Shown: in pieces, positions 39,896-48,234 of the stretch
How positions within the stretch are numbered: the first letter of the stretch is position 1
How the letters are laid out: the number at the start of each line of letters is the position of its first letter
Assembly: GCA_947303945.1 (NCBI GenBank)
Contig: CAMYZS010000007.1
Location: 1 to 60,235 of the forward strand
Length of the DNA: 60,235 nucleotides
Direction of reading: 5' to 3'
Source: an uncultured Candidatus Saccharibacteria bacterium
GTDB taxonomy: Bacteria; Patescibacteriota; Saccharimonadia; Saccharimonadales; Saccharimonadaceae
Position numbers and translations under genes: made by a program
Notes under the pieces: model-generated
Database searches by the model: none
Told to the model about the DNA's origin: nothing
The model's input: the letters and a program-made list of their open reading frames with translations, nothing else

Positions 39896-42706
39896 TTATT
39901 TGATAACAATATTCACAAGATGGTTTTTTGGAACCACGATAATCTTGGCAATTTCTTTGCCATTGGTAAAGGTTTTGACTTTTTCGTCAGCAATAGCGTA
40001 TTCTTCGAGTTTATTTTTATCCTCGGCTTCATCGGCCGGGACCTGAATACGAGCACGAAGCTTGCCGTTAATTTGCACAACCAACTCAACTTCGCTTGCC
40101 GACAAATGCTTTTCGTCCCATCTCGGCCAAATATCGTCAGACTTAAGCTCTTCCAAAATTTCAGAAGCAAGGTGTGGCGCGAATGGCTTTAAAAGCTTAG
40201 CCAAGACAACGACATCTTCCCGATTAGCGCTATTTTTATATAGCTCGTTGACAAACTCCATTAATGCCGCTACGGCGGTATTGAAGTTATTTCGATACAT
40301 GTCTTCGGTAACTTTTTTAATTGTCTTATGACGATAAGCAATATTGCCATCAGTCTCATTAAACTTTTTGTCAAAAGCTAGAGCCCAACAACGATTTAGG
40401 AAACGGTATACGCCGCCAATAGCCTCCGTGCTCCAAGCAGCGTCCATATTATATGGGCCAATAAAGAGCTCGTAGGTACGAAGAGTATCCGCACCATAGC
40501 CCTGGTCGATTACATCGAGCGGGTCAATAACATTCCCCTTAGACTTGGACATTTTTTTACCATCTGGTGCATTTATATAGCCGTTATAGAGGAGCTTCTT
40601 GATTGGCTCGCGGAAGTCCAAATAGCCCTCATCGGCAAAGAATTTACACCAGAAGCGCACATAGAGAAGATGTGCTACGGCATGGTCACCGCCAACATAG
40701 ACGTCAGTTGGCGCCCAAAAGTTAACCTTCTTTGGATCCCAGGCCATTTTTTTATTGTGCGGATCCGTATAACGCCAAAGATACCAGCTCGAGCAAGCAT
40801 AGCCATCGAGCGTATCGGTCTCGCGCGTCATTTCTTCGCCATTTACTGTAACCTTCATAAACTCTTTGGACTTAGCTAAAGCACTACGTCCAGACGAATC
40901 GGGCTTATAATCGTCGATTTTAGGGAGTAAAACTGGAAGTTGATCTTCTGGAATAGCATGAGGATTACCCTGTTTATCGTAAGCGATTGGAATTGGACAT
41001 CCCCAATAACGCTGACGGGAAATTAGCCAGTCACGCATACGGTAGGTTACTTTAGTATTTCCAAGCTTCTTCTTTTCGAGCCAGGCAATAATGCGCTCAC
41101 CAGCAATAGAATGTTCGAGACCGTCATATTCACCAGAATTAATCATGATGCCAGCGCCAACAATAGCACATGGGTTTTTATAATACTTAAAAGTGGTCGC
41201 ATGCAATTCGTCTTGGACCTTAGCGAGTACTTCCTGCTCATCTAGCCATTCAACTTCAAATTTTTCGTCTGGCTCAAGTTGTTGCTTAATGCGCTTGTTA
41301 GACTTTAGCTGAAATGCGAAACAATAAATATCTTTTTCGATATATTCTTTGCGATTTGCGGCGTAATAATTATGATGAATGCGTGGAGTTTCAGCGATTA
41401 ACTCTAGGTCAGTATAGCCGGTTTCCTCGCGGATTTCGCGAAGTGCACATTCTTCAGGAGTTTCACCCTTTTCGCCGCTACCGCCTACAAATAAGTGCCA
41501 GTCCCGGCCATTAGTCTTGCTCCAATCTAGAGTAAGGTATTTTTTTGCATTAGGGTCATAAACGACAGCAACCGTACCCCAAGTTTTTTTCTTCGCATCA
41601 TCGCGCGCTTCACCGGTAACTTCCTCAATGACTTGGCGAATTGGCAAATCGAACTTTTGTGCAAACTCATAGTCACGCGAATCGTGCGCTGGCACAGCCA
41701 TAATGGCACCTTCACCATATCCGGCAAGAACATAATCGGCAACCCAAATCGGAATTTTTTCATTATTTATCGGATTAATTGCGTAGGCGCCAGTAAAAAC
41801 ACCAGTTTTTTGCTTATTTTCTTGACGCTCAATTTCGGACTTCTTAATAGCGTCCGTACAATAGTTATCAACCTTAGGTTTCTGCTTGGCGGTAACGATT
41901 TTTCCAATAAGTTGATGTTCGGGAGCTAACACCAAGAAAGTAGCGCCAAAGAGCGTGTCGGGACGGGTCGTGAATACTTTTATAGTCTCATTAGAGCCGT
42001 CAATATGAAAATCTATCTCTGCACCCTCACTACGACCAATCCAATTCTTCTGCATCGTCTTAATCTTCTCCGGCCAGTCAAGCGAGTCTATCTCATCGAG
42101 TAATTCATCAGCATATGCAGTTATTTTGAAGAACCACTGCTTCATTTTCTTCTTTTCGACTTCGTGCCCACAACGCCAGCAGTGGCCATTTTCTACCTGT
42201 TCATTCGCGAGCACGGTCTGGTCGACCGGGCACCACCATTGATAGCTCTCAGCCTGATAAGCTAGCCCTTTTTTAAACAGTTGAAGGAAGCACCATTGAG
42301 TCCACTTATAGTATTCTGGGTCAGAAGTATTGATCTCGCGCGACCAATCTATTGCATAGCCAAGGCGTTTAGCTTGTTTGCGGAAGTTATCAATATTGGT
42401 TTTAGTTACTTCCTGCGGCGAAATGCCAGTTTTAATGGCATAGTTTTCGGCTGGAAGCCCAAAAGTGTCATAGCCAAATGGGCGCAAGACATTTATATCT
42501 TGCTGAGCATAAAAACGGGCCAAGCAATCAACAATAGAAAAATTACGAACATGACCAACATGTAGGCCGACGCCAGAAGGGTATGGAAACATCTCAGCAA
42601 GAAACATCTTCGGACGACTATCGTTATCTTTGGCGGCAAAAGGTTTCTCTTTTTCCCAACGCTTTTGCCATTTTTCTTCTATTTTTAGTGGATCATAATG
42701 GCTCAT
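39896..42706 (-). CDS. leuS: Leucyl-tRNA synthetase with an embedded Nudix domain
   Basis: The 936-residue class Ia synthetase has HVGH (49-52, HIGH motif), a zinc-site-like C159...C176xxC179, the CP1 editing domain (TTRPDTLFGATF near 246 and AVPAHDSRDYEF near 337-348 with the conserved aspartate), and KMSKS at 718-722. Between LPIRQVI (about 354-360) and AGIMINSGEYDG (about 518-529), where ordinary LeuRS has about 20 residues, lies a roughly 150-residue insert with a complete Nudix box (GSGEKGETPEECALREIREE and TGY, about 409-431). Both frames and boundaries are intact, so this is one fused protein. The promoter gives a 1-2 nt leader. Confidence 0.95.
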   Translation of the reverse strand: MSHYDPLKIEEKWQKRWEKEKPFAAKDNDSRPKMFLAEMFPYPSGVGLHVGHVRNFSIVDCLARFYAQQDINVLRPFGYDTFGLPAENYAIKTGISPQEVTKTNIDNFRKQAKRLGYAIDWSREINTSDPEYYKWTQWCFLQLFKKGLAYQAESYQWWCPVDQTVLANEQVENGHCWRCGHEVEKKKMKQWFFKITAYADELLDEIDSLDWPEKIKTMQKNWIGRSEGAEIDFHIDGSNETIKVFTTRPDTLFGATFLVLAPEHQLIGKIVTAKQKPKVDNYCTDAIKKSEIERQENKQKTGVFTGAYAINPINNEKIPIWVADYVLAGYGEGAIMAVPAHDSRDYEFAQKFDLPIRQVIEEVTGEARDDAKKKTWGTVAVVYDPNAKKYLTLDWSKTNGRDWHLFVGGSGEKGETPEECALREIREETGYTDLELIAETPRIHHNYYAANRKEYIEKDIYCFAFQLKSNKRIKQQLEPDEKFEVEWLDEQEVLAKVQDELHATTFKYYKNPCAIVGAGIMINSGEYDGLEHSIAGERIIAWLEKKKLGNTKVTYRMRDWLISRQRYWGCPIPIAYDKQGNPHAIPEDQLPVLLPKIDDYKPDSSGRSALAKSKEFMKVTVNGEEMTRETDTLDGYACSSWYLWRYTDPHNKKMAWDPKKVNFWAPTDVYVGGDHAVAHLLYVRFWCKFFADEGYLDFREPIKKLLYNGYINAPDGKKMSKSKGNVIDPLDVIDQGYGADTLRTYELFIGPYNMDAAWSTEAIGGVYRFLNRCWALAFDKKFNETDGNIAYRHKTIKKVTEDMYRNNFNTAVAALMEFVNELYKNSANREDVVVLAKLLKPFAPHLASEILEELKSDDIWPRWDEKHLSASEVELVVQINGKLRARIQVPADEAEDKNKLEEYAIADEKVKTFTNGKEIAKIIVVPKNHLVNIVIK

Positions 42707-47385: not shown

Positions 47386-48234
47386 TTAGACAAGAGCCCA
47401 ACAGTTGCAACCTAGTGGCCGAACTATATTCTTTAATTCAAGTAAAGTTATCGTTTGGTTAAACTTTGAAATATCGATTTTTGCATCCTTAGCAATTTCC
47501 TCGCCGCTAATCAGGCCAGCTTTAAGTTTATTAATTATTAGCTCTTCATCCACACTTACGCTTTGATGGTGTGTTTCCGAAGCTTTAATACCTAATGCGC
47601 GAGAAGTAAAATCTTCAAAGCTAATATACGGATGAGCCTCCCATAATAACATATTGCAACCCTTCGACATGGGCTGAGTTATATTGCCTGGAACTACATA
47701 TAAATCTTTGCCCTGTTCGATAGCATATGAAGCCGTGCGTAATGTCCCGGAACGATCAGACGCTTCCACGATAACTACAATATCCGCTAGGCCAGAAATA
47801 AGCCGATTGCGTTCTAGAAAGTTTCAAGCATGCGTCTCATGTCCGACTGGATATTCGGAGATTATCGCCCCACGCTCAAGAATACGTTCAGCTAAACTGT
47901 AGTTTCCGCGAGGGTAAATCTGATTTATCGGCGTCCCCAAAACCGCAACCGTCGCGCCGCCTGCATCTAAACAGCCACGATGCGCGCAGGAATCAATACC
48001 ATACGCTAAACCGCTAACTACAATTACTCCTATTTTTGCTAAATTATAAGCTAGCCGATAGGCAATTTCCTCCCCGTAGCTCGTACATCGGCGAGCGCCC
48101 ACGATTGATACGACTTTTTGGCTATTTTGTTTTTCTGGAAGAGAGCCGCGGCTTCAGAGGTGCGTAGGCGCAGGCGTAATATTAACTAGTGGCTTTGTAA
48201 AACTATGGCTAAAAACACACTCTTTTATTTCCAT
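47386..48234 (-). pseudogene. dprA: dprA (smf) frame interrupted by two in-frame UGA codons
   Basis: A single 283-codon frame from ATG 48234 to 47386 encodes DprA: KPLVNITPAPTHL, then UGA (48154-48156), SRGSLPEKQNSQKVVSIVGARR, VVSGLAYGIDSCAHRG, VAVLGTPINQIYP and ISEYPVGHETHA, then UGA (47824-47826), NFLERNRLISGLAD, EASDRSGTLRTA, VVPGNITQPMSKGCN and the C-terminal winged helix. There is no frameshift and no other stop. DprA loads RecA on incoming single-stranded DNA. A -10 box 6 nt before the ATG is intact. It is either a recent pseudogene or read through; UGA is a normal stop elsewhere here, and tryptophan in LLWEA and NCWALV is UGG. Confidence 0.85.

Follow-up and report, generated by a model that had tools for sequence, protein, structure and literature searches.

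A group of core DNA-uptake genes in one genus of Saccharibacteria, tiny bacteria that live as parasites in the gut, is interrupted by in-frame UGA codons, and is probably gated at these codons by a competition between RF2 and tRNA-Trp. The gated set comprises comEC, comF, dprA and the gene of an LTD-domain surface protein, and includes that of a cutinase-like protein in part of the genus. A wider reading, which we hold more tentatively, is that of a genus-wide stop-codon regulon, in which a lower action of RF2 would switch on transformation post-transcriptionally and comEC, comF, dprA and the LTD gene would open together. The analysis departs from dprA, located in a window (a stretch of 60,235 nucleotides) from genome G000. 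This gene is, on balance, a working member of the UGA-gated set.

The dprA frame and its two UGA codons

The frame of dprA runs from an ATG to a TAA and contains exactly two internal stops, both UGA, and no frameshift (Table 1). In this respect the earlier note, made from the window alone, had described the gene correctly as whole apart from two in-frame UGAs. It had also expected Trp at 47824 and an aromatic residue at 48154, whereas the alignment with congeners gives the reverse, Trp being usual at codon 27 and an aromatic residue at codon 137. The promoter of its own that had been ascribed to dprA found no support, a consensus scan giving no sigma-70-like site upstream on the dprA strand. 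When UGA is translated as Trp, the product matches the Pfam family DNA_processg_A (PF02481) with 1.3e-67 over residues 9-199, across both UGAs and the whole Rossmann region. It also matches solved DprA structures, the closest PDB relative being 3uqz (E 2.6e-33). The gene is single-copy in the genome.

Table 1. Coordinates of dprA, its in-frame UGA codons and its domain in the window
Feature	Position	Strand	Remarks
dprA	47386..48234	minus	283 codons with the stop counted; complete product requires both UGAs to be sense
UGA codon 27 of dprA	48154..48156	minus	LW.RG site, putative "early gate"; congener column Trp 14, UGA 11, Tyr 4
UGA codon 137 of dprA	47824..47826	minus	aromatic site, Rossmann-fold domain; congener column Tyr 17, Trp 7, UGA 3, Phe 2
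DNA_processg_A (DprA) domain	47638..48210	minus	includes both UGAs

The genes with in-frame UGA and their distribution

Genome G000, the single UGA-positive genome that was scanned whole, was covered for 1,285,032 of its 1,288,167 bases and compared with the proteome of the UGA-free congener G006. Among the 402 genes common to the two (1186 UGG codons), true internal UGA was found only in dprA, comEC (PF03772), comF and the gene of the LTD-domain protein (PF00932), each of which carries two. The remaining stops listed in this comparison were judged to lie 5' of starts, to be terminal, or to belong to antisense frames in which several stop types occur. When G006 was scanned in turn for internal UGA, no comparable case came up. 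A secreted cutinase-like protein (PF01083; G000:C18:19654-21141) stands outside the 402 because its length departs too far from that of its G006 counterpart; its gene has three in-frame UGAs, and roughly half of the congeners with this gene also have UGA in it. ComEC, ComF and DprA are named as core com components of Saccharibacteria in PMC10633639. By our own calculation, if five of about 400 genes have UGA, the chance that three named com genes are among them is ~1e-6. A coding-potential scan for more UGA genes was too noisy to be used alone. One further candidate for a UGA gene, C14:18554-19600, has no match in Pfam.

The LTD surface protein (G000:C26:13281-14768, L122; relatives L282-L311) is a candidate for an unrecognised component of DNA uptake. 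In G012, G013, G015, G029, G031, G034, G040, G041 and G043 its gene lies ~4-5 kb from comEC.

Across the 45 genomes of the genus, dprA is present in 41, with in-frame TGA in many copies, and in-frame UGA also occurs throughout the genus in comEC, comF and LTD. A midpoint-rooted tree of the four proteins sets the UGA-free genomes G006, G014 and G026 apart from the rest, here called the ingroup. Among aligned ingroup loci, UGA was found in 33/33 for comF, 25/32 for comEC, 24/28 for LTD and 16/27 for dprA. In the last count G032 was scored negative, only the downstream half of its gene being aligned, and G030 was left unaligned; both have the frameshift form described below. For some members of the genus the start of comEC is uncertain, and the counts exclude any UGA in alignment column 1. 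About a third of the ingroup dprA genes, and some of the comEC and LTD genes, are UGA-free, a point against the gate. The earlier note considered two stops of the same type odd for random decay, and in fact UGA recurs in the four genes throughout the genus far beyond chance. What had been seen there in dprA alone extends to the whole com set and to frameshift sites of the prfB type.

The comF search spanned the order (295 genomes in 143 genera, the genus itself being one of them) and the dprA search 198 genomes. Outside the genus, no internal TGA was found among the comF matches listed, except for one match (G199) with TGA and TAG, and none among the dprA matches listed. In-frame UGA thus seems limited to the genus where tested, that is, for dprA and comF. 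Splits in the dprA of the sister genus g3 were only apparent, and turned out to be in-frame insertions. Within the genus, TAA or TAG in the comF matches lay 5' of the start, UGA being the sole stop type that interrupts the frames. The genomes compared seem to consist mostly of draft assemblies or MAGs, and UGA-bearing comF was found in 'Candidatus Saccharibacteria bacterium' MAGs from several projects, at least one of them from sheep rumen. Apart from this, the comF of G019 (L222) is similar to that of G029 both in its own sequence and in the region upstream of it, contrary to the tree, and may well reflect contamination or transfer.

Frameshift sites and the proposed gate

In two genomes the dprA frame is interrupted in another manner. 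At HRGC-L|D-AGG the gene is broken by CUU UGA C in G032 and by CUU UGA U in G030, and in both the +1 frame is intact to the end; a prfB-type CUU UGA site with an intact +1 frame was found only in these two dprA genes. They also have a weak purine-rich element (GAGGU or GUGGG) at the position of the SD-like element of prfB (AGGGGG-like, six bases before the stop). Only 4-7 of about 3000 random single-base insertions in dprA create such a site, and G030 and G032 are not sisters in the tree that contains dprA. The presence of prfB-type sites in two species therefore suggests that the common feature of the gate is UGA, at which RF2 terminates, and not Trp.

The gate would operate as follows. By default, RF2 would terminate at the early UGA, so that translation yields no more than a short peptide. 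Where RF2 terminates poorly, the sole tRNA-Trp(CCA) would insert Trp at UGA, and in the dprA of G030 and G032 a +1 shift of the prfB type at CUU UGA would take the place of read-through. When the action of RF2 goes down, or near-cognate decoding goes up, ribosomes would pass and all com proteins would appear together. Several UGAs in one gene would multiply, such that the gene would act like a combination lock, with an output that climbs steeply as read-through becomes more efficient. In other bacteria, RF2 action is lowered or near-cognate decoding raised by acid pH, starvation and tRNA modification (PMC10057733). The comparison of genomes supports this proposal through the restriction of the breaks to UGA and to a few genes, the retention of UGA with movement, the selection downstream, the Trp columns, the undetected tRNA(UCA) and the prfB-type sites. 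Near-cognate tRNA-Trp as decoder, RF2 activity as input and the regulation of competence as purpose are what we infer from these.

The strongest competitor is a constitutive attenuator or a form of bet-hedging, in which a fixed and modest efficiency of reading UGA as Trp keeps the com proteins at a very low or cell-variable level and no signal opens the gate. The gene set, the UGA retention and the Trp columns fit this equally well, and tRNA-Trp is known to leak at UGA in E. coli, and in B. subtilis to the extent of about 6% (PMC7918605). Moreover, no condition-dependent factor was found, nor was a trans factor identified for the high read-through state that the most heavily interrupted genes need. 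However, some comEC genes carry 4-5 UGAs, and at an ordinary leak of 10^-3 to 10^-2 (PMC10057733) these would yield almost no product, which is why a state of high read-through is to be expected; the prfB-type sites, in addition, indicate a control that is sensitive to RF2. A constant attenuator is the less likely of the two in our judgement, though a serious alternative, and a switch is what we infer.

Position of the UGAs and selection downstream

Most carriers have the first UGA of dprA in a column where Trp is conserved. In G022 and G043 it lies two codons before this column and in G012 and G034 four codons after it; here the UGA has shifted to a nearby codon that does not encode Trp, which is not a change of UGG to UGA and looks like retention of the stop. 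A shift of this kind is also seen in comF, where the first UGA takes one of nine columns depending on the clade, mostly within the N-terminal Cys-rich part and often in non-Trp columns. In comF, judging from the alignments, a stop persists but does not stay at one codon. Relative to UGG codons, UGA is enriched in the first 30% of dprA (p 4e-5), comEC (5e-8) and comF (2e-9), values that are indicative only because the sequences are related; the same comparison gave no early concentration in LTD.

These positions bear on neutral drift, by which a leaky UGA would make the change of UGG to UGA tolerable in genes that need little protein. Such drift would explain the many extra UGAs at Trp columns, and competence genes may indeed be weakly expressed. 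Nevertheless, it is hard to reconcile with a UGA in every aligned ingroup comF despite the changes of column, often to non-Trp ones, with the early clustering in three genes and with the lack of UGA in other genes, and we consider it improbable.

Downstream of the UGA, dN/dS is 0.04-0.05 in close dprA pairs, 0.11-0.19 in comF and 0.05-0.27 in comEC. By this measure the sequence 3' of the UGA is under purifying selection, strong in dprA, which argues that full-length DprA is made in the cell. The earlier note offered three options, namely recent pseudogenisation, sequence error, and read-through of UGA that serves to switch DNA uptake. Annotation pipelines would indeed label the genes broken, but UGA is the sole type of lesion, and the first two options are excluded because of the recurrence across the genus, the strong purifying selection and the independence of the assemblies; the probability that we leave to them is minute. 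Read-through as a switch is favoured, the regulated character of the switching being the presumptive part.

How the UGA is read

Further UGAs occupy columns that are otherwise Trp: LTD column 318 (Trp 21, UGA 9), comF column 203 (Trp 29, UGA 6, Cys 1) and comEC column 323 (Trp 28, UGA 4, Phe 2). This makes Trp the likeliest residue at UGA, and recoding of UGA in these genes is well supported by the comparison. The sole tRNA-Trp is an intact tRNA-Trp(CCA) with an anticodon stem of 5 bp, which rules out the variant with a 4-bp stem. Within the genus, 29 genomes share one and the same tRNA-Trp sequence. The 28-42 pair differs in the UGA-free G006 and G026 but not in the UGA-free G014, and so is no clean marker. 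The suppressor tRNA-Trp(UCA) for which the earlier note proposed a search was not found: ARAGORN gave neither tRNA(UCA) nor tRNA-Sec in 1,285,032 of the 1,288,167 bases.

TGA is also a normal stop in this genome, ending 222 of the 1199 selected ORFs, and its usage as stop is alike in the UGA-gated G000 and the UGA-free G006, which speaks against the proposed gate. RF1 and RF2 are present and whole, RF2 with its SPF and GGQ motifs, and prfB, the gene of RF2, is a single open frame wherever complete in the genus, without a frameshift of its own. That UGA encodes Trp throughout the genome, or selenocysteine, is extremely improbable in view of the TGA stops, the intact RF2, the tRNA search and the limitation of internal UGA to a handful of genes. 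The coincidence of UGA with Trp columns would agree with the first of these readings and opposes the second.

With respect to context, U at position +4 is rarer after sense UGA (16/83) than after real UGA stops (73/207; p 0.0075), a signal that is mild because it is no rarer than after UGG. RNA structure was looked for downstream of the sense UGAs, and none was found. Neither the +4 context, which is only mildly unusual, nor a downstream structure thus provides a cis signal that would account for efficient read-through, a further point against the gate.

Some tRNA-like sequences were considered as UGA suppressors and rejected, as those at G000:C5:62746-63032 and C6:52016-52079 are without a UCA anticodon. 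The former (C5 corresponding to L082-L085) is a cluster near a contig end, beside an extra tRNA-Lys, with two tRNA-like genes that have 8-base anticodon loops and were unassignable by ARAGORN ('ga', 'agaa'); the latter is a degenerate match of 36.7 bits that ARAGORN did not call. An unusual insertion was also observed in the leucyl-tRNA synthetase (39896-42706, minus strand), in which a NUDIX domain (PF00293, 8.2e-18, residues 376-498) follows right after the start of the editing domain (PF13603, 219-377).

Significance and relation to known systems

If a whole pathway is controlled through a stop codon that its genes have in common, and not through a common promoter motif, this would add an uncommon level to the control of bacterial genes, located between the autoregulation of prfB and the reassignment of the code. 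Standard annotation would score these genes as broken and the genus as non-competent. If the regulon reading holds, the UGA mark could be used to find more members of the DNA-uptake machinery, and the gate would offer a means of acting on competence in Patescibacteria that can be tested directly. A literature search of partial coverage returned nothing that combines Saccharibacteria, UGA and readthrough, and nothing on stop-codon read-through in dprA.

A close parallel is the autoregulatory +1 frameshift of prfB at CUU UGA C (PMC12421855), where an early in-frame UGA likewise means off as long as RF2 is effective. The dprA genes of G030 and G032 share with it the slippery CUU UGA, preceded at a distance of three bases by a run rich in purines. 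Here, however, the targets are DNA-uptake genes and not RF2, most gates would act by in-frame read-through, and the prfB of this genus lacks the frameshift. Near-cognate read-through by tRNA-Trp in E. coli and B. subtilis (PMC7918605, PMC10057733) has in common the leaky UGA, the probable insertion of Trp and the competition between RF2 and tRNA-Trp, whereas in the present case the UGAs are borne by a defined functional set of genes and are kept across a genus. Another parallel is the reassignment of UGA to Trp in the code, which includes the Patescibacteriota family JAKLIH01 and the tRNA-Trp with a 4-bp anticodon stem (PMC13092985). UGA at Trp positions and a tRNA-Trp(CCA) are shared features, but here the change is not genome-wide, UGA is still a stop and the anticodon stem has 5 bp. 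Finally, the saccharibacterial com system, for which comEC was reported to be required for transformation in Southlakia epibionticum, has the same core set of ComEC, ComF and DprA; internal stops go unmentioned in the excerpts of that paper (PMC10633639), whereas the corresponding genes of the genus described here are interrupted by UGA.
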